Source: a virus. Taken from it: a stretch of DNA of 37,651 nucleotides. Position 1 is the stretch's first letter; every line of letters begins with the position of its first letter. The notes under the pieces were generated by a model. The model did not search any database. It worked only from the letters and a program-made list of their open reading frames with translations, and was not told where the DNA came from. Both the position numbers and the translations under genes were made by a program. Positions 2,983 to 31,467 of the stretch are shown here, in pieces. The stretch spans positions 1 through 37,651 of IMG/VR virus record IMGVR_UViG_3300020109_000057. The stretch is one strand, 5' to 3'.

Positions 2983-3612
2983 ATGTCTTATTCTTACGAT
3001 TATTATTATCAAGCTTGTTTATTATTGAGGAGTAAAGGATTTTATCCTAAAAATATATTGGATATTGGTGCAAGTGTCTGTCAAACGGCAGACATTATGC
3101 GCGAAATTTGGCCTGTCGCAAATATCTTGTTATTTGAAGGAAACAATGAATGCGAAAAATTATATCAGAAACTAGAATATAAATATCAAATAAAATTACT
3201 TGGCAAGCAGAATGGAATAACTAAATTTTATAAAACAAAATGGAGTCCAATTTGTTCTGGCAATTCTATTTATAAAGAAAATTCTGAAACATACAATGAA
3301 GAAAATCTTATAGTAGAAGAGTTGCCTATTTATAAATTAGATGATTGCATCAAAGATGTTTACGATCTTATAAAAATTGATACTCAAGGCAGTGAGTTAG
3401 ATATCATTGAAGGCGGCATGAATACTTTTAAAAATGCCAAAGTCGTTATTACTGAAGTTTCTTGCGATAATTATAATGAAGGCGGCTGCACTAAAGATCA
3501 AATATTAAAGAAAATGTCTGATCTAAAATTTGATTATATTATGCCTGTTGAAACAGTTGTGAACAACAAGAATGAATTCATTGCCGAAAGTTTATTGTTT
3601 ATCAAACCTTAA
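2983..3612 (+). CDS. FkbM-family SAM-dependent methyltransferase
   Basis: This 209-aa protein has the FkbM/Methyltransf_21 pattern. A SAM-binding motif I is present (NILDIGAS, residues 24-31), then an acidic residue after strand 2 (LLFEGN, Glu52). The diagnostic IKIDTQGSELDIIEGG lies at about residues 130-145, where the family has (I/V)K(I/V)DxxGxE. Family members O-methylate sugars and small molecules. Next to two glycosyltransferases and a sulfotransferase, the likely substrate is a glycan on the virion or the host surface. That target is inference. Length is typical for a compact FkbM domain. Its TAA overlaps the stop of the convergent glycosyltransferase by four bases, with no terminator between them. 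Confidence 0.85.
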   Translation: MSYSYDYYYQACLLLRSKGFYPKNILDIGASVCQTADIMREIWPVANILLFEGNNECEKLYQKLEYKYQIKLLGKQNGITKFYKTKWSPICSGNSIYKENSETYNEENLIVEELPIYKLDDCIKDVYDLIKIDTQGSELDIIEGGMNTFKNAKVVITEVSCDNYNEGGCTKDQILKKMSDLKFDYIMPVETVVNNKNEFIAESLLFIKP

Positions 3613-4571
3613 ACTAATATCTTCTTCCACCATTTTATAACCATCTTTGGGCGAAAGTTCCTTGGCGTAGAATCTTTTGTTGAATAATTTTTAAACATGT
3701 TTATATATTCTTGCATATCAGTGGTAAGATTTTTATTGTTTACTAATTCGGGCAAACTACCTAGTCCATTTATACCAAAAACAAATGAAGTAGTTTTTAA
3801 TATATCAGCCAACACAACGCTTATTCCAAAAGTCTCGGGCATCGTATTTACATAAAACATGCCGCGACATTTTGCCATCAGCTCAACTACTTCTTTGAAT
3901 TTAAGAGTGCCTAAATAATTGACTCCATAATTTTTGTCGCTTATATCTTGAAGTGGATTATCATATCCCGGCAAACATACGTTTAATATATCTGTGTTAC
4001 TGAGTATTTTTTGATCTTTGAGATATTTCCACATAGATAATGTAGAATTATATCCTTTCATTAAACTACTAGCATATATAAAATTTTTCTTATTATCTGG
4101 TATAGAATATTCGTATACCCAATCTGGTATTATGAAATAAATAACGTGTTTGTCCCAGAATTTAGGAAACAAATCGTTTTGAAATTGACTAAGCGTAACT
4201 AATGTCAATTTCTTTTCTTCAAATAGTTTGTAGAATTTCAAATTATGTACGCCATTTAAATCTGTAGCCCATACAAACGCTTTTTTATGAGCAATTTTAG
4301 GAACGTCGCTGTATCTATGAATAATCAGGTTATTGCATTTAAATTTGTATTTATTAGTATAAGTATTTGGCGCATATAATACTCCATTTACAAAAGATTC
4401 TGTATTATAATTATTTAAACATATAACTTTATATCCTTCTTTAACTAATTCTTCAAGAAGTAAAATAGCTTGAAACTCGCTGCCGCCCATGCCTGATTGA
4501 TGCATGGTATTTCCATCGTATGGAGATCCTATGCTATCAAAAAGAATAACGTCTGCATAAATATCCGTCAT
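3609..4571 (-). CDS. GT-B glycosyltransferase (GT4-like)
   Basis: This is a 320-aa protein. The N-terminal half carries a Gly-rich donor/acceptor loop, MGGSEFQAILLLEEL (about residues 28-42), typical of group 1 transferases that begin with GG(S/A)E. The C-terminal half has the nucleotide-sugar segment MPETFGISVVLAD (residues 244-256), where E246 matches the first Glu of the EX7E motif. The second Glu is absent: the expected position, 254, is Leu, although Asp256 is close. GT-B enzymes lacking the second acid are known, so activity remains possible. It would transfer a sugar to an unknown acceptor in the cytoplasm. The start ATG overlaps the stop of the upstream glycosyltransferase (ATGA), so the two are translationally coupled. 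Confidence 0.8.
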   Translation of the reverse strand: MTDIYADVILFDSIGSPYDGNTMHQSGMGGSEFQAILLLEELVKEGYKVICLNNYNTESFVNGVLYAPNTYTNKYKFKCNNLIIHRYSDVPKIAHKKAFVWATDLNGVHNLKFYKLFEEKKLTLVTLSQFQNDLFPKFWDKHVIYFIIPDWVYEYSIPDNKKNFIYASSLMKGYNSTLSMWKYLKDQKILSNTDILNVCLPGYDNPLQDISDKNYGVNYLGTLKFKEVVELMAKCRGMFYVNTMPETFGISVVLADILKTTSFVFGINGLGSLPELVNNKNLTTDMQEYINMFKNYSTKDSTPRNFRPKMVIKWWKKILV

Positions 4572-5332
4572 ACAATAACTTTGAAATCATCATCATTATC
4601 TGCTTTAGAGAAATATTTAGCAATATCAGTTGGTGATTGTGAATCATATGTTTCAGTTTTTCTGAAAGAATTGATCCACTTTCCAACATCTCCAAAAAAC
4701 GTTTTCGTGCCTGTATGTGAGCAGGTTATTTTCGTATCAAGATAAACGCTGTTGCCAAGATTACGCCACTTCTTGCACATATAAATATCTTCACTAATCA
4801 AATCATTATCTTCGCAGACAACTTCAAACACCATTCTCGCATCGCCTTTCTCTGAAGTGTATGGCTTTGAAATATCCCATAATGCATTTATTGCTTTGCG
4901 AGAAATCTTCATAAATCCGCAACCTAATCCTGCAACTTCAAGAATACCATTTTCATCTACATTTAAATTCAATTTAGAATTATCTTTATCAAGAGCTTTA
5001 ACAACATATAATTCTTCGTTATCTGTTTTCTTGCGGTAACTGCCGCCAATTATGTCTTTATCGCTATGAACTAGCTTATAAAAATCTTGAGGGTTCCAAC
5101 CAATATCACCATCAATAAAAAATAAAATATCTATATTATTATCATGCGCGGCTTTAAATAAATCATTTCGCGCACGTTGTATTAGCGAGTCGTAACAGAT
5201 AAACAATGGATAAACGTCTATATTATTTTTTTCTGCTGTAGATAAAGTATTTAAAAGCGAGTCAATATAATAAACATCAAGTTTGCCGTCGTATGATGGA
5301 GTTCCAATTAATACTTTTGTTTTTTCAGCCAT
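4568..5332 (-). CDS. GT-A glycosyltransferase (GT2-like)
   Basis: This 254-aa protein begins with a Rossmann-like strand (KVLIGTPSYDG) and has the segment SLIQRARNDLF followed by LFFIDGDIGW. D74-G-D76 is the metal-binding DXD motif of GT-A enzymes. It closely resembles short phage and bacterial GT2-type proteins containing R-x-x-x-a-x-x-f and flDsDi-w. A conserved C-terminal acidic stretch (EDNDLISEDIYMCKKW) fits the catalytic-base region. It is coupled to the downstream GT-B gene by a 4-base overlap. The upstream region is unusual: a strong hairpin-plus-T element ends at the start codon, and the only convincing Shine-Dalgarno-like GAGG lies inside its 3' arm. Expression may therefore depend on read-through from the 93-aa gene or on opening of the hairpin. 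Confidence 0.8.
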   Translation of the reverse strand: MAEKTKVLIGTPSYDGKLDVYYIDSLLNTLSTAEKNNIDVYPLFICYDSLIQRARNDLFKAAHDNNIDILFFIDGDIGWNPQDFYKLVHSDKDIIGGSYRKKTDNEELYVVKALDKDNSKLNLNVDENGILEVAGLGCGFMKISRKAINALWDISKPYTSEKGDARMVFEVVCEDNDLISEDIYMCKKWRNLGNSVYLDTKITCSHTGTKTFFGDVGKWINSFRKTETYDSQSPTDIAKYFSKADNDDDFKVIV

Positions 5333-5719: not shown

Positions 5720-6544
5720 TTAATAATCATAATTAAATGCTTTATAAAACCAAGGAAATTTGTTGTAAATATTATCGCAGTTTTGTTTTCCGAGAATATC
5801 GATATAATCATTTGGAACTGGTTTTATTACTTTTTGAATAGCGTGATCGCCAAAAGGAATATGCATGCGATCATTTTCAAAGGTCTTTTGTTCTACATTA
5901 TTAAAATCGTGTTGATAAAATGGCAACTCTAAAAACTCATATACTCGTTGCATTTCACGTTGCGGATTAGAAGCAAAGTTTTCGAACTTAATAAACAAAC
6001 ATTTTTTGCTCAACTTACGCATCAAAGTATCATACAATACATCCATACTTACAGCAAGTGGTGGAGCTTGTAATAAGAAATAATCTATTCTTTTGTCTAC
6101 AGTAGTGTTCCGAAGTTCATTCCAATTTTGTAGACCGGCATCTATGTTTTGATGTTGTCTCCACTTCTTTTCCATACTAGCTACAACCGCTCTTAAATCA
6201 CGCACCATGACAATTACTTTGGGATCTGGATAATACCAATTTAAAAAGTCATAAGTTACACTCCAACCTCTGCTTTTATCAATTACATACTTTTTATCAG
6301 TAATAGCATTAAAGTATGCAAGCATACCTTCTTTGCAAAGAGCTTTGAATGCTGGCTCTACTACATTGATGTCTTGAGCTTTGAACTCAATGTTGTTTGA
6401 ATAGATATTTCTTGCATTAAGAAATATTTCAATCAATCCACTCGTTGGTGTAGCATAAAAATCAGGATTTTGCGCCAATACATTTTGTAATAATGTTGAA
6501 CCAGCCCGAGGCAACGAACATTGAAAAAATACCTTTTCAACCAT
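5720..6544 (-). CDS. PAPS-dependent sulfotransferase-like protein
   Basis: This is a 274-aa protein when begun at the ATG at 6544. The frame is open to 6589, but the shorter start puts the 5'-phosphosulfate loop PRAGSTLL at residues 12-19, the usual place in Sulfotransfer_1/3 proteins, and avoids overlap with the divergent kinase. A 3'-phosphate-binding segment follows at residues 109-123: KVIVMVRDLRAVVAS, with Arg115 and Ser123 in the positions of the family's R...S. Trp residues and a C-terminal helix are also typical. The enzyme would move sulfate from PAPS to a hydroxyl group, most likely on a sugar or a tyrosyl side chain. The adjacent glycosyltransferases favour a glycan. The adjacent APS-kinase-like gene could supply PAPS. 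Confidence 0.85.
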   Translation of the reverse strand: MVEKVFFQCSLPRAGSTLLQNVLAQNPDFYATPTSGLIEIFLNARNIYSNNIEFKAQDINVVEPAFKALCKEGMLAYFNAITDKKYVIDKSRGWSVTYDFLNWYYPDPKVIVMVRDLRAVVASMEKKWRQHQNIDAGLQNWNELRNTTVDKRIDYFLLQAPPLAVSMDVLYDTLMRKLSKKCLFIKFENFASNPQREMQRVYEFLELPFYQHDFNNVEQKTFENDRMHIPFGDHAIQKVIKPVPNDYIDILGKQNCDNIYNKFPWFYKAFNYDY

Positions 6545-6554
6545 ACCATATATT

Positions 6555-7010
6555 ATGCCAGATAATTCGTTTTTAAAGATACTTATCATGGGATTGCCAG
6601 GATCTGGAAAAACAACATTAGCGGCAGATTTATATCATTTATTAAATGTAAATTACCAATGTTATTGGCTGAATGCTGATGATATAAGACAAAGATTTAA
6701 TGATTGGGATTTTTCAAATTTAGGTAGAAAACGTCAGGCTAAACGCATGAAAGATCTTGCTAATTTATATGGTCAATACAATGATATTATTATATGTGAT
6801 TTTATCTGTCCGTTAGAAAAAACTAGACAAGATTTTAATGCTGATTATACTGTTTTTGTGAACACTATTGATATGTCAAAATATGATGATACAAACAAAA
6901 TTTTTGAAAAACCTGTAAATTTTAATTTTGAGGTGAAGATAAAGAATAGCAGATATTATTCTAAAATCATATATAACGAATTAGTTCATAAACTTAATAA
7001 AAAAGTGTAA
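6555..7010 (+). CDS. Adenylylsulfate (APS) kinase-like P-loop protein
   Basis: This is a 151-aa kinase. Walker A is GLPGSGKTT (residues 13-21). NADDIR (40-45) replaces the GDNIR-type motif of CysC. WDFSNLGRKRQAKRM (51-65) matches the family's GFS-x-x-R-x-x-N-x-x-R helix, and FICPLEKTR (83-91) matches F-I-S-P-x-x-x-x-R. After FVNT it is shorter than E. coli CysC (about 200 aa), lacking most of the substrate-loop region, so it is a compact member. CysC phosphorylates APS to PAPS, the sulfate donor used by sulfotransferases such as the divergent neighbour. The two start codons face each other with only 10 bases between them, suggesting paired acquisition. Another small-molecule or nucleotide kinase activity is possible. 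Confidence 0.75.
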   Translation: MPDNSFLKILIMGLPGSGKTTLAADLYHLLNVNYQCYWLNADDIRQRFNDWDFSNLGRKRQAKRMKDLANLYGQYNDIIICDFICPLEKTRQDFNADYTVFVNTIDMSKYDDTNKIFEKPVNFNFEVKIKNSRYYSKIIYNELVHKLNKKV

Positions 7011-12718: not shown

Positions 12719-15700
12719 ATGTCAGTACAAATCAATGTCGCGGCGAATCAAGCAGCATTAGTAGCTTCTATTCAAGCTGGTGTACAAGCATATAATCAAA
12801 GATTTGCGCAGAATAATCCAATAAATCTTCAAATTAATGCCAGAGCTTTTTCTCAACCATTAGGAAGAATAACTGGAGATGTTAAAGATTTTGAAGCGGC
12901 ATTGGCGGCTTCTAATGCTCGCGTTATTGCATTCGGTGCATCTACTGCTGTTCTTGGTGGTGTTATTCGTAGTTTCAAAGAATTAGCTAGTGTAACCATT
13001 GATGTTGAAAAAAATCTTGCTGATATTAATCGTGTATTCGGATTAAGTACAAGTCAGTTACAAAAATTCAGCACAGAATTATTCAACGTAAGTAAACAAA
13101 CGGCTTCATCATTTGATGATGCTAGTAAAGCCGCTCTTGAGTTTTCTCGTCAAGGTTTAAAAGCTGAAGAAACCTTACAAAGAACAAAAGACGCTCTTAC
13201 ATTAACAAGATTAGCTGGAATAGGAACAGCAAATGCTGTTGATGCTTTAACTTCTACTGTAAACGGTTTTGCTGCAACTGGAATTACTACAACTCAGATT
13301 TTAAATAAACTTGTTGCTGTTGAACAAGACTTTGCTGTTGGTGCTGGTGATCTTGCTGAAGCGTTGTCTCGTACAGGTCAAGCAGCACAAGAAGCTGGTG
13401 TTAGCTTAGATCAATTGAACGCATTAGTAACAGCTGCTCAACAAAGTACAGCTAGAGGCGGTGCAGTAATTGGTAACGCATTAAAAACAATTTTTACTCG
13501 TTTACAACGTACAGATACTCTTGATCAGTTAGAAGCATTCAATATCTCTGTTAGAGATGTACAGGGAAATATTTTACCAGCAGTTACTATTCTTGAAAAC
13601 TTTGCTGGCGCATATAAAAATTTAGCTGACGCACAAAGAGCGCAATTGTCTGAACAAGTTGCCGGTGTTTATCAAGTCAACATTCTTAAAGCAATTGTCA
13701 ATGATTTAAATCAATCTCAAGGAGTATATGCTGGCGCATTACAACGTGGCGCAAGCGCAACAAATGAAGCAGAAATTGCAACAGCTAAATTAAATAAAAC
13801 ACTTGACGCATTATTAAGTCAAACAGCAACATCTGCTCAACAATTAGCCAATAATATTGGTAAAGTTACTTTTGAACCTTTGGCAAGATACGGCACAGAA
13901 CAATTGAAGTCTCTTGTCGAGAGCATGAATGAAATTCTTGAAGGCGAAGGCATCGGTTCAACATTTGCAAATGGTTTATTGAAAGGTATCAGAAATGTGA
14001 TAGCTGGTCCCGGTGCTATTGCTGCTTTCTTTACGCTTTTTAAATTAATACAAAACTCTTTTTCATTTCTTAGTCAAGCTTTACCTCAGATTGCTGGTAT
14101 TACGACAGAAACACAAAATAGAAAAAATATTGAATCGGCTATTTTGCAAATTATGGCGCAACAAGGAACTGTTGCGCAAGCTCTTGATGGATTAACTGGA
14201 AATCAAGTAGCACAAGCGAACTTGTTGCTGCAAACAGCAAGAGCGCAAACTGCTGAATATCAACGACAAGTAACATTAGCAAAACAATTAGCTCCTCAAT
14301 TGTCTGGTCAAGGAGTTAAAGTAGCTGGTTCTCGCGGATTACAAGTTACTCGCGCTGGCGGTTACGTTCCCACTGCGACAAAATTAGCAGAAGTAGTTGG
14401 CGCAAAAGCTGGTGGCTATAGTCCCGGCAGAGTAGTTCCTTCGCCGGTTGGTGGAGTAATGAATACCGCTGAAGATGTAAAATATGTTCCCGGTTTCGCT
14501 CAACCTTTTATTAATCCTCCTGCTAATTCCAAGGCAGGTCGCGCACACAGACAAAAATCAATAAATAGAACAGGTGTTGATCCATATATGTTTAGAGGAT
14601 TTATTCCTAATTTTGGATTGACATCTACTGGAACAGAAACATCTAAAGAATGGTCTGATCGAGTTAAAATCAGAAATAATCCACTTGTTACTAGTAAAAC
14701 TAATGTTGGTCCAAAATTTTTTGATTTTTTTGTAGCAGACATAAATAAAAAACAACTTAACATAAGTATTGATGCGATTAGAAAAGAAGCGCGAGATGTA
14801 GTCAAAGAAATATATTTAAAAAAACAAAATAGAACAGGCGAATTATCTGGACTTGCTTATCAACCAGAAAAATTGCAAGCTTTTGTAAATAAATATGAAG
14901 ATCAAGTTGATCCTACGGGTTTAGCAAGAACAGAGACTGGTTTAAAAAATATAAACAAAACAAGTGGATATTCTTATGCAATAAATCAAGTTCAAGGATT
15001 ATTAGGAGAAGCAGAAGCTTATAAAGAATTAAAAGATCATGGATATAAACCAACAAGCGGTAATCAATATTTTGATTTTAAGACTGATGATGGAAGATTC
15101 GCTGAAGTAAGAACCAGAAAAGCAGTTTCAATTAAAGATATTTTGGATAAAGCTATTTTACAACATTTATCAACAATAACAGGAACGTATAATAATACTA
15201 AAAATGATCGTATTTTTACAGGTAATTATGATTTAATTACTCCAACTGGAACTGCTTTTAATGCTTCCGGTTTTATTCCTAATTTTGCTGTTCCAATGAC
15301 TACTGCAAGCATCCCTTGGTTCAAAAAATATTCTAGTAAATATAAAAATGTTGCTGGTGATACAGATGTTTTCAAGATGGGGGATTTTCCTACTTATGGA
15401 AGAGGTTTAAATCACGAATATGCAAAAAAGGGAAATTCCGCTATGCTATCTTACTTGCATGAAGATTTTGTAAGATCTGCATTGAATATAGCTTTAGGTT
15501 CAAAAAAAGTAATAAGACCAGCAGAAGTTGGATTCAAAAATAAACCCGTAAGCGATATATCAAATGAGAATGATTTTGATTTATTATATAAACTTGCTGA
15601 TGGTTCATATAGTATGATTGAATTGAAGCAAGATTTTAAAAATATTTCTGGATCTGTTATTGGATTCATGAATAAAAAACTTGAAAATCTCAAAAAAGAA

Positions 15701-18700
15701 AATCCAGAATTAGCTAAAAAAGTTAGCTCAATGATTGCTATATCAAATAGACCAAAATTTATTGATCCTACTGGTAAAAATCCTGGTGCAAATTTCAGTG
15801 AATTTGAAATGGCTGTTGCATCAATTGTTAAAGATAAATATTCGAATGTTGATTCAACAATAAGCGCAAAACTCACAAAAGTTACTGATGGTTTATTAAG
15901 AAGATACGAAGCTAAGAAAAATACCACATATGGTGGTTTTATACCTAATTTTGCTTCACCTATAATGAAGGGTTATGCTTTTCAAGATGGTAGAATATAT
16001 AATGCTTTATACCATTCAGATGCTTGGGATGAAATTGAAGGTTCTACTAAAGGCGCAATAAAATATGCTATTCATAATAATAAATTATTATTACAAACTA
16101 GACAACCAATATCGGATACTTTAAAACGAGCATTTATATCAAAAGGTGTGCCTGAATCAGCTTTTTCTCCAGTTGAAGATGTAGCAGGTACTATGGCGGG
16201 TACAAATATTGCTGAAACAGAAAAGATGATAAATAATTTAGACCTCGTTGATATTGGAGGTGGTTATAAAGCTCAATTAAGAAAGGGAATTTATACAGCA
16301 ATTTATAATCTAAAAAATCAATCTTATGCTCCATTTGGCGGCGTAAGCCCAAAAGAATTACAAATGTATGGAGGTATTGAAAACTTTCTTAAGCGTGAAT
16401 TAAAGTTGGGAAGAGCTAAATCAGATTTTTCTCTTAATTCTTCAAAAGGTTTTATTCCTAATTTTGGTGTTGATCGAAACTATGTATTAGAAACTTTAGG
16501 AAGAATAAAGGAAGGCACAAGCGGTTTTTCTAAACTAGAGATAGAAGAATTCCTTAAAAAATTTGGCGCAGAATCATCAGTTCCTGATAAGATTTTTTCT
16601 AAAAACTCAATAATATCTACTGGAGAAATAATGGGAAAAAAACTTCCCAAATCAGTCATTGATTATATCAAAGGTAAATCTGTAAAAGAATTGAATGATT
16701 GGTTACAGAATCCAATTAAAAGAGCAATGTTTGATGGAATATTTGGTTTTAATTTCAGCAATTTTATAGGCAAAAATTCTAGATTTACAGATAGTAAAGG
16801 TTTTATTCCTAATTTTAACTATAATGATGGTGCATTGGATAAAATGACCACAGAATTAGGAAAAAGAGGAGCAATATCATCAGATCTAATACAATTCGTA
16901 ATCGATTTAAAAAATGAAAGATATGCAACGGGAGAAGATAAATTTCATCGCGAAATTGTAGCCAAACACTTTGGAGAAAACTTAACTCATGAAGAGTTAT
17001 TACACCCTAAATATGCAAATACTTATTTGAAAGGCAGTTATGATAAAAATAGTGGAAAAATTATATTTTATAAATCATTTCTGCAATCAATATTGCCGGA
17101 TAATCTTTTTGAAAACAAGCATCCATATATAAGAACAGTAAAAAATGAATTAAAATCAAGATTTGCTAATCGACAAAAAAACCGCCCAGTTATACCAAAA
17201 ACATTTTCTGCTTATAGAACATTTCACGAACAACATCCTGGACCTTTCCCTGTAAATGATTTTAATAAAGGTTTTATTCCTAATTTTGCATATAAACAAG
17301 CAGTAATGAGTTTAGAAGAAAACATGAGTGGCAATAAAGCCATATTTGATACTAAACCTTTTCCTCATATTAGAAACAGCAGTCAGCCAACATTTAGTTC
17401 CGCGATTGCCGATCATGGTGGATTAGCAAATGCGATGAGCGATTCAATGAGAGGACAGAAAGCTGCGGGGTTGATGAGTAAAGGGTTTGTGCCTAATTTC
17501 GGAAAAAAAGGAAAAAGTAGAAAAAGGAGAGGATCCTCTGCAGCTAGTTCTTCTGTGCCTCCAACAGGACCAGCATCAAATCCATCTCCTCCAACACCAG
17601 CATTTAGTAATGACGATATAGACCGAGCTATTTCTGATTTTATAAATGCAGTTCAAGCAGCAGAAGAAAATTTAAGCTTTTTTGAATCTGCGTTTGGAAG
17701 AAATAAATTGATAAAATCAGAAATGTTAAAATTAGAAAACGCTTTAAAAGCAGGTGGTCTTTCTGGCGCTGAATTGAGTAAGGCGATGACTGCTGCCAGT
17801 AATCAGATAAAGCAACAACAAGGTAAGTTTGCAAAAGGTTTATCATCTGCTAGCACAGCTATATCTATTGCTGGACCAATGATTGCTGGATTTGTAGAAC
17901 AAGCCGTTTTTGGTAATAAAAAACGTACAGAAATGACATCTGGTGAACGTCAAGGTCAAGCCCTTATAAGCACTGGATTGAGTGCTGTAACAACTGGCGC
18001 GGGTATTGGTGCAGCTTTTGGTCCTCAAGGAGCATTGATAGGTGGTGCTATTGGAGGTTTGGTTGGTTTAGTTAGCGCAATAGATGCAGCTAGTTTATCG
18101 TTATCTGAATTAGCGGAAATTGATCAAGAATTTTTAAAAAAACAACAAGCTAATTCTCAAGCTGCTTCTGGTTATGTTGATAGTCAGAAAAAATTAAATG
18201 ATTTAATAGCTAGTGGAGCTTCAAGTAAAGATATTGAAGATGCAACTAGAAATTTAGCACTTAGTTTTAATGAAATTAAAGATGTTAATCTAGCTCAAAT
18301 TTTTGCTAGCACTGGCGGTAATGTAAATAAACTACAAGATGAACTGAAGAAATATAATGATCAATTGAGTAGAACAGCAGCCGGTAAATCTGCTTTGAGT
18401 AATTTACAACAAGGCGGTGGATTTTTTGCTACAACTTTTGCGGGTGGAAAAACAACTGCTGAATTAGGTGTTAAAGAACCTTCAGAGGTGGCTGCTGAGT
18501 TATTCAAATCATCTTCGCTATTTAAAGATCCGCAAGTGATTGAACTTATGAAAGCTGGCACTAATGAAGATTTAATTGCAAGTGTAAAAAGATTCAAAAG
18601 TAGCAGAGTAAAACTCAATGTTCCAGGTCTCAGAGAGAATGCCGCTCAAATAGCTATTGCTCAACAAAATTTTGCTAAAAAATTTACTGATGAATTATTT

Positions 18701-21700
18701 CCAGATCTAAAAGAGAATGATTTTGCAAGATATCAGCAAGAAGTTCAAAGAGCAGTAGATTTACTATTCGGTAAAAGTGGAGAAGCAATCGGAAGAGGTC
18801 TTGAAAAAATGGGTAAATTAGAGGCTTCTAACAATGCTATTCAAAAAGTTAGAAACGCCGCTTTACAAGGATTTGCTGAAATTTTTGGAAAAATAGAAAA
18901 TTCTATCAAAACTTTATCATTGCAAGCGGCAATAGCTTTAGAAAAAGATTCACAAATTAACAGGGTAAATTCGGCAATAAATGAATTTACTACTAATTTT
19001 TCTGAATCGATTGAAAGTTTTGTAATGAATTCTTTACCAGAAGGTCCAAAAAAATTAGGCTTTACTCAATTTGCCGCACAAAGAAAATATGATGATGCTA
19101 TTGCAAAACAGCAAATTTCTGCTGAAAATTTCAGATTGAGTCAACAAAAAGAACGAAATGATTTTCAAAAAACAAGAGAAGAAAATATAACAAAATTATT
19201 TAAAGAAGTAAGCTTGCAATCCGAACAGTCTGCTAAATTTTATCAATCAGATATATATGATAAAGTAAAATCGGGAGATTTGTCAGGTTTATCAAGTGAC
19301 GAAGTAAGTAGAGCTTTGACGGGAAAATTAATTGAACGAACTAAAACATCAGGATTAACAGCTGAAAGTCAAGCAGTAAGTTTAAGAAGAGGTTTAAAAG
19401 AAAAAAATATTGATCTTTCAAACTTTGATTTTTCAGATAAAGATAAAGTTGGTAGCTTAATCGAAACTGTAGGCGCAGTTCAAAATGAAATAGCTGCTAC
19501 AGGTGGAGCAGGGAGCGATCAAACTTATTTAAAAAGAATAGTCGCTAAATTTCAAAATTCTTTAAGTGATCTTTACAACACTCAAGAATTTTTTACAAAT
19601 AAAGCTAAGAAACAAGAATATGATGCAGCTATTGAGTTGGCTAGATTAGAAGGAGATCAGTTCAATCAGAGAATGATTAATGCTGAAAAATTATTTCAAG
19701 TAAATCAAATTTTAGAAAAAGCTCAATTAGAAGCAACAAAAACTTTATCAGTAGAAAGAGCTAAAGTAGATAATGCAAATTTCATGCGCATGGAAAGCAT
19801 GAAAAACATGTCCGCAAGTATAGCTAATAATTTAGATGTAAGTAAGGCCGAAGGAACAAGAGACATAAATCGCCTTAAAAGAACTTTACAAGATCCTGCT
19901 AAAGTTGCTGGTCTCGGTGTATCAGAAAGATCCGAAAGACAGTTTAAAATACAAGAACAAATATTGAAAAAAGAAAGAGCTATGGAAGATGCAAACATAA
20001 ATGCTGAAATTCAACAAAGAATGTTGGAATTAGCCGCTGAACGTGAAAATACAACAGCTTTATATAATTTATCAGAAGTCATTGAAAGATTTGCGGCAAA
20101 AACTTTGTTAGATGATTTAGGTGGAGAAGAGGTTTTTAAAGAAATGCAAAATAATCCTTATATAGGAAAAAGCAAGGACGAATTAGACGTTATGATTACG
20201 AGCGGATCTTATATGCAGCAAGAAGTAAATCCTGGTGTTAACGTTTTAGAGCAAATACGAAAAGCTCAATCTTATTCTCCAGAACAATTAACTAAATTCG
20301 AAGCGTATAAAAGAACTCAAGCATCTATTGCTGCTTATAGATCAGGCAACACTTCAACAGCTACAGTAGACGCTTTTGCTGATAGAATGTCTAAGGCAAA
20401 TTTTAATAAGATGGACAGAGATAAACAAATGGCATTCTTAACAGAAGAGCGACAGAAAGCTGATGAAGCAGGAGCAATAGCATTATCAAATACTATTAGT
20501 CGTTTTCAAGAACAGATTAAATTAAGAAAAGAAGCTCTAGATATTAGCAGAGCCGATGTAAATGAACAAGTAGAATTCGATAAAAAAATTATTAGAACCA
20601 ATAATTCTTTTGCAGGAAGATTTAAAACTAGTTTTCGTAACCTTAAATACGAAGGAGAAGAAATTTTATTAAAACTAGGTGGAGATCTGCCAAGAATGTT
20701 TGCTGATGGTCTTGTAAATGGCATAAAAGCAGCAATAAGAGAAAGCGATAATTTAGGTGAAGCTTTAATGGGTATAGCTGGTAACTTTTTAGATGCTATA
20801 AGTACCGCTATGATGCAATCGGCGGTTTATTCAATGTTGGGATCGATGGGATTCAATATGGCTGGTGCCGCTGGATCAGTGCCAGTTAAAACTCAAAAAG
20901 GTGGAGTGATTCGCGCTCAATCTGGTATGTATATTTCTGGAACAGGTTCTGGAGATAAATATCCAGCATTACTTGAGAACGGCGAATATGTATTGAATAG
21001 AAAAGCAGTAATGGCTATGGGTGGCCCAAGCGAATTAGATAAATTGAATTTTTCAATGGCTCCTCGTTTTGCTTCTGGAGGTTCTTTTGCAACAGAGTTG
21101 ACTGATTTAAAATCTATGGAAGAAGGTATGACAACTTTTGGTTTAGAAAATAGTAAGTTATACAATGAATTAAGAGATGAACAAAGAGCTAAACAAGCAG
21201 AAAAAAGACGCAAAGCCGCTGAAAGAAGAAAAATGATTGCTGGTATTGTGGGGTCAATAGTTGGAATGGCGGCTTCATTTGGGCTAATGAAAGCTGCTGG
21301 TAAATTTAATACTGATACTGGTATGGGCGGAAGTGCCGCGCCAAAAGGCCCTGGAGTTGATAAACCTGATTATTTAGGATATGGAGTTGGATCTTCTAGA
21401 AATACATCTCTAGCTATAGGAACAGGAGGTCAAACAGGAGGATTATTTACTGGTAAAAGTTTTCAAAAAAGCAGTAACTCATCATCGTATGGTTCTCGTT
21501 TATCAGACATAATTCCAGCTTATGCAGAAGGTGGATTATATAGCTCACCAATTATTAAAAAATATGGTGTTGGTATGCAAAATGGAGGAATGTACGGTGG
21601 TTCTTCTAACAATTCTAATACAGTAAATAATAACAATGCAACTAATTCATTCAATTTTAATACAACAGTAAATAGAGACGGTACTATACAAATGGGAGCA

Positions 21701-21838
21701 GATTCAACAAGTTATAAACAACAAGATGTAGAATTATCTAATAATTTGAATTCTAAAGTATATGAAACAGTATTAGATGTGATAAAACAACAACAAAGAT
21801 TTGGCGGCGTATTAGCTGGAACTCGTAGACCTGTTTAA
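12719..21838 (+). CDS. Tape measure protein carrying an internal module array
   Basis: This 3039-aa protein sets tail length and leaves with the DNA during infection. Residues about 95-400 are a typical tape-measure core (PhageMin_Tail/TP901 type: KNLADINRVFGLSTSQLQKF, then RGGAVIGNALKTIFTRLQRT). Glycine-rich hydrophobic segments that could cross membranes lie at about 428-450, 1705-1730, 1760-1789, 2680-2713 and 2839-2859. The C-terminus has the common GG-x-x-x-x-x-G...PALLENGEYVLNRKA signature (about 2730-2770). Between residues 627 and 1594 seven GF(I/V)PNF motifs separate six modules, two of them PD-(D/E)XK nuclease-like. A basic KKGKSRKRRG patch and a Pro/Ser linker follow the last motif, then long coiled coils. 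The stop and the next ATG share one base (TAATG). The core role is secure; the delivered-effector role is inferred. Confidence 0.95.
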   Translation: MSVQINVAANQAALVASIQAGVQAYNQRFAQNNPINLQINARAFSQPLGRITGDVKDFEAALAASNARVIAFGASTAVLGGVIRSFKELASVTIDVEKNLADINRVFGLSTSQLQKFSTELFNVSKQTASSFDDASKAALEFSRQGLKAEETLQRTKDALTLTRLAGIGTANAVDALTSTVNGFAATGITTTQILNKLVAVEQDFAVGAGDLAEALSRTGQAAQEAGVSLDQLNALVTAAQQSTARGGAVIGNALKTIFTRLQRTDTLDQLEAFNISVRDVQGNILPAVTILENFAGAYKNLADAQRAQLSEQVAGVYQVNILKAIVNDLNQSQGVYAGALQRGASATNEAEIATAKLNKTLDALLSQTATSAQQLANNIGKVTFEPLARYGTEQLKSLVESMNEILEGEGIGSTFANGLLKGIRNVIAGPGAIAAFFTLFKLIQNSFSFLSQALPQIAGITTETQNRKNIESAILQIMAQQGTVAQALDGLTGNQVAQANLLLQTARAQTAEYQRQVTLAKQLAPQLSGQGVKVAGSRGLQVTRAGGYVPTATKLAEVVGAKAGGYSPGRVVPSPVGGVMNTAEDVKYVPGFAQPFINPPANSKAGRAHRQKSINRTGVDPYMFRGFIPNFGLTSTGTETSKEWSDRVKIRNNPLVTSKTNVGPKFFDFFVADINKKQLNISIDAIRKEARDVVKEIYLKKQNRTGELSGLAYQPEKLQAFVNKYEDQVDPTGLARTETGLKNINKTSGYSYAINQVQGLLGEAEAYKELKDHGYKPTSGNQYFDFKTDDGRFAEVRTRKAVSIKDILDKAILQHLSTITGTYNNTKNDRIFTGNYDLITPTGTAFNASGFIPNFAVPMTTASIPWFKKYSSKYKNVAGDTDVFKMGDFPTYGRGLNHEYAKKGNSAMLSYLHEDFVRSALNIALGSKKVIRPAEVGFKNKPVSDISNENDFDLLYKLADGSYSMIELKQDFKNISGSVIGFMNKKLENLKKENPELAKKVSSMIAISNRPKFIDPTGKNPGANFSEFEMAVASIVKDKYSNVDSTISAKLTKVTDGLLRRYEAKKNTTYGGFIPNFASPIMKGYAFQDGRIYNALYHSDAWDEIEGSTKGAIKYAIHNNKLLLQTRQPISDTLKRAFISKGVPESAFSPVEDVAGTMAGTNIAETEKMINNLDLVDIGGGYKAQLRKGIYTAIYNLKNQSYAPFGGVSPKELQMYGGIENFLKRELKLGRAKSDFSLNSSKGFIPNFGVDRNYVLETLGRIKEGTSGFSKLEIEEFLKKFGAESSVPDKIFSKNSIISTGEIMGKKLPKSVIDYIKGKSVKELNDWLQNPIKRAMFDGIFGFNFSNFIGKNSRFTDSKGFIPNFNYNDGALDKMTTELGKRGAISSDLIQFVIDLKNERYATGEDKFHREIVAKHFGENLTHEELLHPKYANTYLKGSYDKNSGKIIFYKSFLQSILPDNLFENKHPYIRTVKNELKSRFANRQKNRPVIPKTFSAYRTFHEQHPGPFPVNDFNKGFIPNFAYKQAVMSLEENMSGNKAIFDTKPFPHIRNSSQPTFSSAIADHGGLANAMSDSMRGQKAAGLMSKGFVPNFGKKGKSRKRRGSSAASSSVPPTGPASNPSPPTPAFSNDDIDRAISDFINAVQAAEENLSFFESAFGRNKLIKSEMLKLENALKAGGLSGAELSKAMTAASNQIKQQQGKFAKGLSSASTAISIAGPMIAGFVEQAVFGNKKRTEMTSGERQGQALISTGLSAVTTGAGIGAAFGPQGALIGGAIGGLVGLVSAIDAASLSLSELAEIDQEFLKKQQANSQAASGYVDSQKKLNDLIASGASSKDIEDATRNLALSFNEIKDVNLAQIFASTGGNVNKLQDELKKYNDQLSRTAAGKSALSNLQQGGGFFATTFAGGKTTAELGVKEPSEVAAELFKSSSLFKDPQVIELMKAGTNEDLIASVKRFKSSRVKLNVPGLRENAAQIAIAQQNFAKKFTDELFPDLKENDFARYQQEVQRAVDLLFGKSGEAIGRGLEKMGKLEASNNAIQKVRNAALQGFAEIFGKIENSIKTLSLQAAIALEKDSQINRVNSAINEFTTNFSESIESFVMNSLPEGPKKLGFTQFAAQRKYDDAIAKQQISAENFRLSQQKERNDFQKTREENITKLFKEVSLQSEQSAKFYQSDIYDKVKSGDLSGLSSDEVSRALTGKLIERTKTSGLTAESQAVSLRRGLKEKNIDLSNFDFSDKDKVGSLIETVGAVQNEIAATGGAGSDQTYLKRIVAKFQNSLSDLYNTQEFFTNKAKKQEYDAAIELARLEGDQFNQRMINAEKLFQVNQILEKAQLEATKTLSVERAKVDNANFMRMESMKNMSASIANNLDVSKAEGTRDINRLKRTLQDPAKVAGLGVSERSERQFKIQEQILKKERAMEDANINAEIQQRMLELAAERENTTALYNLSEVIERFAAKTLLDDLGGEEVFKEMQNNPYIGKSKDELDVMITSGSYMQQEVNPGVNVLEQIRKAQSYSPEQLTKFEAYKRTQASIAAYRSGNTSTATVDAFADRMSKANFNKMDRDKQMAFLTEERQKADEAGAIALSNTISRFQEQIKLRKEALDISRADVNEQVEFDKKIIRTNNSFAGRFKTSFRNLKYEGEEILLKLGGDLPRMFADGLVNGIKAAIRESDNLGEALMGIAGNFLDAISTAMMQSAVYSMLGSMGFNMAGAAGSVPVKTQKGGVIRAQSGMYISGTGSGDKYPALLENGEYVLNRKAVMAMGGPSELDKLNFSMAPRFASGGSFATELTDLKSMEEGMTTFGLENSKLYNELRDEQRAKQAEKRRKAAERRKMIAGIVGSIVGMAASFGLMKAAGKFNTDTGMGGSAAPKGPGVDKPDYLGYGVGSSRNTSLAIGTGGQTGGLFTGKSFQKSSNSSSYGSRLSDIIPAYAEGGLYSSPIIKKYGVGMQNGGMYGGSSNNSNTVNNNNATNSFNFNTTVNRDGTIQMGADSTSYKQQDVELSNNLNSKVYETVLDVIKQQQRFGGVLAGTRRPV
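14615..15268 (+). other. Tape measure module 1: PD-(D/E)XK nuclease-like domain
   Basis: Residues 633-850. The second half carries GLLGEAEAYKELKDHGY (acidic residues at 764/766), then YFDFKTDDGRFAEVRTRK. D786 and E796 followed by V-R798 fit the D...(D/E)-x-K core of the restriction-endonuclease fold, with Arg in place of the usual Lys. A helical lead (about 680-750) precedes it. The fold call is by pattern only. The K-to-R change may alter activity. Confidence 0.5.
15287..15934 (+). other. Tape measure module 2: PD-(D/E)XK nuclease-like domain
   Basis: Residues 857-1072. LHEDFVRSALNIAL (E915) is the first helix acid. NDFDLLYKLADGSYSMIELK gives D954 and E968-L-K970, the complete D-x13-E-x-K arrangement. 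KQDFKN follows. This is the better preserved of the two nuclease-like modules and is not an obvious copy of module 1. A DNA- or RNA-cleaving role after ejection is inferred. Confidence 0.55.
15953..17482 (+). other. Tape measure modules 3-6, no recognised domain
   Basis: Module 3 (residues 1079-1243) begins GYAFQDGRIYNALYHSDAWD and looks like a mixed alpha/beta domain. Module 4 (1250-1360) is short and helical. Module 5 (1367-1517) has KFHREIVAKHF and THEELLHPKYANTYL, with scattered His and Glu but no metal motif I can defend. Module 6 (1524-1588) is short and polar, with PFPHIRNSSQPTFSSAIADH. No function is assigned to any of them. Confidence 0.7.
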
Positions 21839-30095: not shown

Positions 30096-31145
30096 ATGAA
30101 TACATTATTCAAATTAAATAATTATGTAGTAATAGATTTGTTTGAAATAGAACTTGAATCAAATGAAGGATATTTAAGATTTCATGGGTCTAAAAATTTT
30201 GATAGAAACATAATATTCCAAAATAAAGAATATATTTTTATTCCGTGTGAATTCAATGATTTTCAAACCACTTCTGATGGTAGACAGGCTAGACCTAGAT
30301 TAAAAGTTGGAAATATAAATAATTATTTTTCTAGAGTTTTACAAGATCGTGGAGATTTGATAGGTAAAAATTTCAATAGAAAAAAAATATTAGCCAAGGA
30401 TTTAGACGCTATAAATTTTACAGATGGTAAAAATCCGTTCGGAACTTCATTTTTTAATACTTATATATCTTTTGATAAATTAATAGTAAATGCTAAATTA
30501 GGTGAAAACTTGAATTTTGTCGAATTAGAGTTGGTAACAAAAGTTGATTTAGAAACTCTGTCTGTTCCAGCAAGAAAAGTTACTAATGATACATGTTCGT
30601 GGAATTATAGATGTTATGGTTGTAACTACGGTAATAACAGAAAATATGAAGGGCCAACAGATATAAATGCAAAAATTTCAGCACCTTCTGGATCAGATCC
30701 TACTTTTAATAAATTCTTAGGAGTACCAGTAGCGGACGAAAATGATAAAGTATTTATACAAAATTATAGCAGTTTTTCAAATAATGGCAACTATGAAATA
30801 TCATCATTAAGATATAAAGGTGAATGGCTATCTACTGTTTCTTATTCAGTAGGTGACTTTGTTTATATAGATGCATTATCCAACACGAACTTAGAATCAG
30901 ATGAATCAATTTTATCACCTTTGATTCAAAATAAAAACTATTTTGTTTGTGTAACTGCGAATTCAAATAAAAATCCTATAAAAAATACTAATGTTTGGAA
31001 GCAAGATAAATGTTCAAAAACGCTTCAAGGTTGTATGCTAAGATTCGGAAACAATACTACAAACGCATTTACAAATGGTAAACCGTTTTTACCTTTTGGC
31101 GCATTTCCAGCAACATTTCCATTCAATAATGATACTAACGTCTGA
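30096..31145 (+). CDS. L: Minor tail protein L family with inserted CBM5/12-like domain
   Basis: This 349-aa protein's C-terminal part has the gpL cysteine signature: C167, C173 and C176 (TCSWNYRCYGCNYG), C285, then C306 and C313 in DKCSKTLQGCMLRFGN, followed by LPFGAFPA. Lambda gpL binds an Fe-S cluster through four Cys in pairs spaced 9 and 7 apart. Here 167/176 and 306/313 keep those spacings, but about 130 residues separate the pairs instead of about 23. The insert contains WLSTVSYSVGDFVYI...YFVCVTANSNKNP...VW, the W-x-x-x-x-x-Y-x-x-G-D-x-V...P...W pattern of CBM5/12 carbohydrate-binding modules. The family call is firm. Cluster binding and glycan binding are inferred. Its end overlaps the K-like gene by 17 bases. 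Confidence 0.85.
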   Translation: MNTLFKLNNYVVIDLFEIELESNEGYLRFHGSKNFDRNIIFQNKEYIFIPCEFNDFQTTSDGRQARPRLKVGNINNYFSRVLQDRGDLIGKNFNRKKILAKDLDAINFTDGKNPFGTSFFNTYISFDKLIVNAKLGENLNFVELELVTKVDLETLSVPARKVTNDTCSWNYRCYGCNYGNNRKYEGPTDINAKISAPSGSDPTFNKFLGVPVADENDKVFIQNYSSFSNNGNYEISSLRYKGEWLSTVSYSVGDFVYIDALSNTNLESDESILSPLIQNKNYFVCVTANSNKNPIKNTNVWKQDKCSKTLQGCMLRFGNNTTNAFTNGKPFLPFGAFPATFPFNNDTNV

Positions 31146-31467
31146 AATACTTGATGAAATTAAAGATTACGCTTTAGAAAATAAAGATATAGAGGTTTGC
31201 GGTTTTGTTGTTAAAAATAATGAACAAATAATATTTAAGCCGATTGCAAATAATCACCCATCAAAAGAATCTTTTTTTCTTGTTTCTCCAAAAGAGTATC
31301 TTGAAATAAAGAATAAGTATGAGATATTATATTTGTTTCATAGTCATCCGATTGGATTTGATTTTTCAGAAATAGATTTAAAATATCAAAAATATCATAA
31401 TATAAATATGTTATTATTTATAGTACCATTGCAAAAGTTTATAGAAAAGCGTGTAAATACAATATGA
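31129..31467 (+). CDS. Tail protein K-like JAMM/MPN metallopeptidase domain, no NlpC/P60
   Basis: This is a 112-aa protein. The frame is open from 31075, but the ATG at 31129 gives a start directly before the first helix (SEILDEIKDYALEN). The JAMM metal site is visible: E22 in IEVCGFV, then H71-S-H73-P, S80 and D83. The spacing HxH-x6-S-xx-D is one residue shorter than the usual x7. Lambda gpK joins this domain to a C-terminal NlpC/P60 cell-wall hydrolase. Here the protein stops after the JAMM domain. It is placed between L and I as in lambda. The deubiquitinase-like fold may process the neighbouring ubiquitin-like I protein. That link is a published idea for this pair of families, not shown here. 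Confidence 0.8.
   Translation: MILTSEILDEIKDYALENKDIEVCGFVVKNNEQIIFKPIANNHPSKESFFLVSPKEYLEIKNKYEILYLFHSHPIGFDFSEIDLKYQKYHNINMLLFIVPLQKFIEKRVNTI
31451..31457 (+). promoter_or_regulatory. GTGTAAA box upstream of the I-like gene
   Basis: GTGTAAA inside the end of the K-like gene, then TACAATATGAT and the ATG at 31469 (11-base gap). Also reads TGTAAATA. There is no Shine-Dalgarno sequence at this start. Confidence 0.4.

Follow-up and report, generated by a model that had tools for sequence, protein, structure and literature searches.

Hexapeptide-punctuated arrays of exchangeable, enzyme-like modules in tape measure proteins of uncultured tailed phages

Why should a tape measure protein (TMP), which sets the length of the phage tail, be interrupted by a series of mutually dissimilar segments bounded by a single short peptide? 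The question is raised by an open reading frame (ORF) of 3,039 amino acids (aa) at positions 12719-21838 (+ strand) of IMG/VR virus record IMGVR_UViG_3300020109_000057, analysed over its full 37,651 nucleotides (hereafter the window). The ORF contains GFIPNF six times, at residues 627, 851, 1073, 1244, 1361 and 1518, and GFVPNF once, at residue 1589, against 0.00015 copies of GF[IV]PNF expected by chance from the composition of the protein; a relaxed form of the motif, searched across the window in six frames, gave nothing besides these seven copies. The six segments between them (modules 1–6; Table 1) show no similarity to one another (best pairwise BLASTP E 1.1) and fall into six different clusters. 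An earlier note on this DNA had described seven motif copies around six dissimilar segments inside an otherwise ordinary TMP and had proposed that the segments are swappable cargo domains delivered with the phage DNA; the layout described there is confirmed. We consider it probable, if well short of assured, that the array is a punctuated, recombining cassette of enzyme-like modules, rich in predicted DNA nucleases, that is carried by the tail and released into the host.

The ORF is an ordinary TMP by the homology of its N-terminal part and by its tail-gene neighbourhood. PF10145 (PhageMin_Tail) matches residues 123-316 (Pfam, E 2.5e-27), eleven tape-measure families of PHROGs match the protein (best E 2.5e-46), and, of ten ORFs scanned around it, three hit tail PHROGs (minor tail twice, central tail fibre J once); these three are downstream, and no upstream ORF gave such a hit. 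A Pfam scan of the whole protein, taken to E 10, found no MuF model. A second IMG/VR record (L205) shares 6,739 bases with the window, beginning within module 2 and running beyond the end of the ORF, and is identical to it throughout them. This rules out a one-off assembly error for that portion of the array; module 1 has no second copy of this kind.

Relatives keep the tape measure part and vary the array. Scanning IMG/VR contigs with the part of the TMP that precedes the first motif (N-part) recovered 30 loci (L numbers), 29 of which carry 3-7 motifs, the thirtieth (L008) stopping short of the array. All 24 relatives whose start is intact have their first motif at residue 625-632, and the N-part is 67-93% identical across 11 relatives aligned. 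An alignment-based second scan yielded 55 loci, roughly half on contigs already found in the first. After removal of L008, cut before its array, and of L080 and L084, which have no motif, the clustering set held 53 TMPs including the window; merging identical arrays left 42 distinct ones with 169 segments in 46 clusters, two of which are spacers of 4 and 10 residues. Because arrays vary between relatives, and because two of the 42 (L075 and L079) have a single motif and no module, modules are exchangeable and can be absent. Different arrays were found even within one metagenome, in three cases: L044 and L051 (N-parts 95% identical), L052 and L053 (89% over 559 residues), and L029 and L032 (88% over 364 residues). 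Homologue searches for modules 3 and 1 added little, returning 4 and 6 loci, respectively, nearly all known already.

Similarity between relatives breaks at the motif. We took 29 TMPs of this clade, formed pairs whose N-part ends were at least 80% identical, aligned them at the motif and averaged DNA identity in 30-base bins. Among the 185 pairs selected for different families in slot 1, mean identity is 0.87 and 0.88 before the motif, 0.91 in it and 0.35, 0.31 and 0.34 after it, versus 0.90, 0.93 and 0.60 before, in and after it where the slot-1 family is the same (29 pairs). The junction between family F1 and the next module behaves alike (0.83, motif 0.92, then 0.35; 74 pairs), and the junction between the previous module and the F0 exit cap gives the mirrored step (0.33, motif 0.84, then 0.93; 137 pairs). 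The start of the part following the last motif (C-part) also diverges right after it (0.80, 0.86, 0.49, 0.36; 175 pairs). Identity within the motif is partly given by construction, so the informative feature is that similarity reaches the motif and does not extend beyond it. At the level of sequence, these profiles show that whole modules have been swapped between relatives at motif joints. The swappable set envisaged in the earlier note is thereby strongly supported, as close relatives differ both in their modules and in the number of modules; the opposite pattern, with the same modules in the same order and one fold in all relatives, was looked for and is not the one seen.

What is conserved at the joints is a peptide. 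Among 211 motif copies we counted 82 different 18-mers, residue variants included. It is therefore the peptide that is kept, and the idea that nothing but a common DNA word is conserved was rejected on this count. The proline codon CCT is over-used in the motif (142 of 167, versus 40% elsewhere), a trace of common descent or recombination. Across 470 distinct contexts matched with G[FYW][IVLMA]PN[FLY], a pattern that itself fixes G, P and N, position 2 is F (82%) or Y (18%), position 3 is I (75%) or V (20%), position 6 is F (93%), and the residue after the motif is A in 73%. Since it is conserved between unrelated cargo, the motif is probably not a mere linker.

Sequence evidence supports the view that several modules are enzymes, predicted nucleases foremost. 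We ran 46 Pfam module scans (the window's six modules and 40 others chosen as representatives or as enzyme-like, one scan covering part of a module), and six passed the Pfam cut-off. Staphylococcal nuclease (SNase; PF00565, gathering score 21 bits) was matched by two of the five F4 modules scanned, L081 (38.4 bits) and L083 (29.3 bits), with L035 (16.3) and L087 (13.9) below the cut-off and L056 giving no match. GNAT acetyltransferase was matched in L028, L144 and L147 (the last by 0.2 bits), and HIGH_NTase1_ass, the C-terminal region of HIGH nucleotidyltransferases, in L131. This last match lies in a 421-aa module (L131:4886-6148, minus strand) in which a P-loop was also noticed by eye, and an 800-aa module elsewhere (L107:4352-6751, minus strand) has a GHKL-type ATPase match just under the cut-off.

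Alignments of module families point the same way. F1, the family of window module 2, has 18 invariant columns, including E59, D98 and K114, with E or D at 112 (15 rows of 27 members, 26-89% identical to the window). F2 has ten, including E79, D110, E121 and K123 (7 rows of 9 members), and cluster c3 has six, four of which are the F-E, D and K of the same pattern (17 rows of 23 members, 16-29% identity to the first). E..D..[DE]xK, as kept in F1, F2 and c3, is the residue pattern of PD-(D/E)XK nucleases. No relation among the three families was detectable with hhalign, so the same nuclease signature recurs without detectable kinship. Window module 1 may also be nuclease-like, with E138 and E170 invariant in five rows and the lysine replaced by arginine in three, the window included. 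In F15, R, S-x-S and E are invariant (3 rows, two of them 91% alike), in positions typical of ADP-ribosyltransferases (ART). Such modules are combined within single chains: the window has two nuclease-like modules (1 and 2), and L083 joins an SNase, an F2 module with the nuclease signature and an ART-like module.

Other signatures are scattered over the arrays. HExxH, the metalloprotease signature, occurs in 5 of 319 modules (carriers L071, L086, L107, L122 and L144) versus 0.2 in shuffles, and the HEELLH of window module 5 is absent from four aligned homologues. By eye, L083 module 4, L104 and L121 look kinase-like, L055 and L086 HAD-like, and L038 and L147 carry a P-loop. A generic regular expression for the nuclease core proved too loose, hitting 126 of 212 modules but also 26% of shuffles, and was left unused. 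The term cargo domains, as the earlier note had it, is supported by enzyme families and invariant catalytic-type residues, although none of the window's own six modules exceeds the Pfam cut-off.

The prominence of nucleases admits another reading, in which homing-type elements in slots 1 and 2 cut alleles that lack them and the motif is simply a tolerated joint. Nuclease-like domains do dominate these two slots in the clade, and nuclease genes have been described at exchange boundaries between phages (PMC10448857). The modules here, however, lie in frame in one chain, where caps enclose them and GNAT and other modules stand beside them in tandem; slot 1 shows replacement, not gain, and what the joint conserves is a peptide, not a single DNA word. 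We regard selfish nuclease cassettes as very unlikely.

Cargo status does not extend to every segment. Module 6 and the stretch preceding motif 1 act as fixed caps, which leaves only modules 1-5 of the window as putative cargo and narrows the earlier proposal. The entry cap shows the conserved pattern GGYVPTATKLAE..MNTAEDVKYVPGFAQPFINPP..SKAG..H..GVDPY and holds within it [KR]Y[IVM]PGFA, which is similar to the motif; its look-alike in other phages, judged by eye, is cluster c7 (9 members, 76-78 aa), with the motif on both sides. Exit caps come in two types, F0 in the clade (Table 1) and c2 (29 members), between which hhalign detected no relation.

Arrays of this kind are not confined to the clade. 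An exact DNA pattern for GFIPNFA retrieved at least 120 stretches from IMG/VR, and 100 of the 120 listed have at least two motifs in one ORF. The other 20 listed have a single motif, and ten of these, in frames shorter than 250 residues, look like chance matches. The 100 multi-motif stretches listed comprise 14 clade arrays and 86 from outside the clade, or 82 distinct arrays. All 120 were counted; the first 80 were clustered after removal of 7 duplicates of known arrays, and among these 80 the multi-motif contigs reach 178 kb (L146). Ten N-parts, long ones picked from 60 other arrays, all matched TMP PHROGs (best E 2e-40 to 1.4e-52). Many arrays are built alike, starting with an entry cap (c7, 76-78 residues) and continuing with the cargo, an exit cap (57-78 residues) and the C-part. 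In L154, a single ORF cut at both ends, motif spacings reach 984 residues.

Cultured phages gave a different picture. With tblastn, the window, L071, L082 and L145 arrays and two caps had no match in 50,697 phage records, and a 103-residue entry-cap stretch gave two phage-record matches at E 9 only and none in plasmids; these were BLAST searches and not a motif scan, so near records may be missed. The N-part matched 155 phage records, all below 60% identity, and the motif was absent from all eight isolate TMP regions inspected among them (Lysinibacillus LC76P1, Lactococcus 949, Brevibacillus Sundance, Bacillus phi3T, Bacillus Staley, Xylophilus Lumi, Enterocloster PMBT24 and gut phage Phass-1). 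Given the lack of a match in the phage records and of the motif in these eight regions, the array may be a blind spot of culture collections.

Could the array simply adjust tail length? Its position in the protein that sets tail length would suit a set of spacers. Among 20 close TMPs, a longer array (range 456-1069 aa) is not offset by a shorter C-part (range 1094-1495 aa; Spearman -0.02, p 0.93), which makes the array unlikely to be part of a fixed ruler, and spacers would not keep catalytic-type residues. We give this explanation almost no weight.

The sequences flanking the array fit a passage across the host envelope. With a 19-residue hydropathy window, no hydrophobic segment was found within the array in any of 51 TMPs (near-identical ones included), whereas 43 of the 51 have one before the array and 50 have one after it. 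Within the 320 residues that follow the array, 39 of the 51 have a GxxxGxxxGxxxG zipper (1.0 in shuffles; inside the array, 1); counted on distinct arrays with enough C-part, the figure is 29 of 39. Tde1, a type VI secretion system DNase effector, has a glycine zipper that is shared with prophage TMPs and is described as needed to translocate the effector into target cells (PMC10240207). For the lambda TMP, labelling by the inner-membrane protein ManZ during injection is reported (PMC13190303). Taken together, the flanking segments and zipper, the role of the zipper in Tde1 and the proximity of the lambda TMP to ManZ make delivery of the modules to the cytoplasm plausible by analogy.

We weighed cytoplasmic delivery against a structural role, in which GFIPNF would anchor to the inside of the tail tube or to a tail chaperone and the modules would act in the envelope or in assembly. 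That the motif also bounds both caps, and that the similar [KR]Y[IVM]PGFA lies within the entry cap, would suit such anchoring. Substrates of nucleases, GNAT enzymes and nucleotidyltransferases, however, are cytoplasmic, and none of the 46 Pfam module scans gave a wall-degrading domain, though most matched nothing at all. On balance we think a structural repeat rather unlikely.

In the reading that we favour, a tail-carried enzyme cassette released into the host, the conserved N-part and entry cap lead into the array, the conserved exit cap and glycine-zipper membrane segment lead out of it, and GF[IV]PNF marks the joints. Being encoded in the ORF, the modules should be in the virion as part of the TMP, unless processed earlier, and would ride in the tail lumen, unfolded or in series. 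The TMP would insert into the inner membrane ahead of the DNA, and the modules would thereby reach the host cytoplasm, where they would refold and target DNA and proteins of the host or of competitors. With less assurance, we suggest that some protein reads the motif: either a protease that processes the TMP, or a tail chaperone or tube, threading the domains one by one. Such a reader would explain the conservation of a peptide rather than of a length or a DNA word. A JAB/MPN metalloprotease-like ORF, recognized by eye in the tail tip cluster (31075-31467, + strand), is a candidate TMP processor. A more general proposal, to which we would give not quite even weight, is that in a large set of as yet uncultured tailed phages the TMP serves as an exchangeable magazine, with a hexapeptide code marking effector threading, release and recombination; a single tail would then bring several enzymes that attack the host in along with the genome, and phages would re-arm by swapping modules at the code.

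Domain swaps might instead serve as a diversifying decoy, altering the TMP surface seen by host defences or inner-membrane partners, with enzyme function incidental. The SNIPE defence is reported to recognise TMPs (PMC13190303), and arrays do differ between relatives with similar N-parts. A decoy, however, need not keep catalytic-type residues, yet F1, F2 and c3 have these among their few invariant columns, and recognised enzyme families are present; we judge a decoy distinctly unlikely.

A number of points weigh against the tail-delivered cassette. Just six of the 46 chosen module scans passed the Pfam cut-off, none of them from the window, and the six window modules gave nothing below E 0.01 against PHROGs. 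Profiles of F1 and F15 found no credible chain in the PDB (best E 0.6 and 0.08, to unrelated proteins). AlphaFold models are of low confidence (mean pLDDT 47 for the window array and 37 for L083), because the alignments are too shallow. A structural look-up from the low-confidence model of module 1 reached Z 4.5 only; arenavirus cap-snatching endonucleases (Z 3.5-4.3) and FAN1 (Z 2.8-3.0) rank below an unrelated, helical focal-adhesion targeting domain (4.5), which makes these hits inconclusive, and the arginine in place of the nuclease lysine in this module counts in the same direction. The breakpoint pairs are non-independent and were aligned at the motif itself. Median dN/dS stays under 1 for every one of the 25 families that gave usable pairs (0.06-0.84; N-part 0.18, F0 0.15), but with dS close to saturation in many of them this is weak evidence. 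The isolate TMP regions and the BLAST searches of phage records yielded no isolate carrying the array (the isolate control left our weighing unchanged), and neither the exit cap nor the N-part found a relative, and hence a host, when scanned against 84,980 prokaryote species genomes. The activity of the cargo and its delivery are predicted from genes, and the reading does not explain how several domain-bearing TMP copies fit in the tail tube or why the nucleases spare the phage DNA.

Table 1 Layout of the tape measure protein gene in the window (module lengths exclude the motif)
Feature	Position	Strand	Basis or remark
N-terminal tape measure part, residues 1-626	12719..14596	+	PF10145, PHROGs; constant among relatives
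Entry cap, about residues 549-626, boundaries approximate	14363..14596	+	Conserved block in relatives' alignment
Motif 1, GFIPNF	14597..14614	+	
Module 1, family F10, 218 aa, PD-(D/E)XK-like	14615..15268	+	Invariant E and FxE; R for K of ExK
Motif 2, GFIPNF	15269..15286	+	
Module 2, family F1, 216 aa, PD-(D/E)XK nuclease signature E...D...ExK	15287..15934	+	Alignment
Motif 3, GFIPNF	15935..15952	+	
Module 3, family F9, 165 aa	15953..16447	+	Clustering
Motif 4, GFIPNF	16448..16465	+	
Module 4, family F14, 111 aa	16466..16798	+	Clustering
Motif 5, GFIPNF	16799..16816	+	
Module 5, family F7, 151 aa, holds HEELLH	16817..17269	+	Clustering
Motif 6, GFIPNF	17270..17287	+	
Exit cap (module 6), family F0, 65 aa	17288..17482	+	Last module in 34/40 clade arrays
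Motif 7, GFVPNF	17483..17500	+	
C-terminal tape part, 1445 aa	17501..21835	+	First residues vary among close relatives
Glycine zipper with hydrophobic stretch, residues 1760-1799, following the array	17996..18115	+	

Elsewhere in the window, a sulfotransferase-like ORF recognized by eye (5720-6589, - strand) overlaps, on the opposite strand, an adenylylsulfate-kinase-like ORF (6555-7010, +) that carries GLPGSGKTT..LNADDIR; the two may be a phage sulfation pair. Also by eye, positions 2983-5332, beside tail genes, contain one ORF resembling FkbM-type methyltransferases and two resembling glycosyltransferases.

Phages must disarm the cell before their own genes are expressed; if the reading of a delivered cassette is correct, TMP cargo of exchangeable nucleases and modifying enzymes would be an early-acting arsenal that is annotated merely as 'tape measure', and with at least 100 multi-motif stretches such arrays are common in environmental virus data. 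The array makes it directly testable what cargo a TMP takes into the cell, and cutting at G[FY][IV]PNF offers a rule by which domains can be harvested.

Known systems share parts of this organization. In tapes of cultured phages, Sundance and phi3T (SPbeta YomI type, transglycosylase) and Staley (peptidoglycan-binding) likewise carry an extra domain inside a TMP with a related N-part; theirs are wall domains, without G[FYW][IVLMA]PN[FLY] and without a punctuated array. TMPs were flagged as sequence mosaics by Smug et al. 2023 (PMC10684548), who were unable to confirm genuine recent cases among them, whereas the present clade shows mosaicism at fixed joints. Tde1 similarly couples a nuclease to a TMP-related glycine zipper for entry into target cells, as described in PMC10240207, but is a single secretion-system effector and not an array in a virion protein. 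The MuF polymorphic toxins of temperate phages, as presented in PMC5576092, resemble the arrays in that a protein of a structural module carries exchangeable toxin domains; they belong to the DNA packaging module and bear C-terminal extensions, whereas here several internal modules stand in tandem in a tail protein.

The closest parallel is with polyvalent proteins (Iyer et al. 2017, PMC5512222), described as phage polypeptides, putatively co-injected with the DNA, in which diverse enzyme domains are joined, among them GNAT, ART, kinases, peptidases and nucleic-acid enzymes. The zincin peptidase is common in them, whereas its proxy here, HExxH, marks just 5 of 319 modules. Unlike polyvalent proteins, the present arrays have fixed caps, one hexapeptide at each joint and exchange between close relatives, and their carrier is the TMP; the word 'tape' appears nowhere in the main text of PMC5512222. 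A search of the open-licence literature, by motif string and by enzyme or toxin domains in TMPs, found no description of such an array, subscription papers and preprints lying outside that search. What is new here is thus cargo of the polyvalent type on a new carrier, the TMP, and with a new punctuation.

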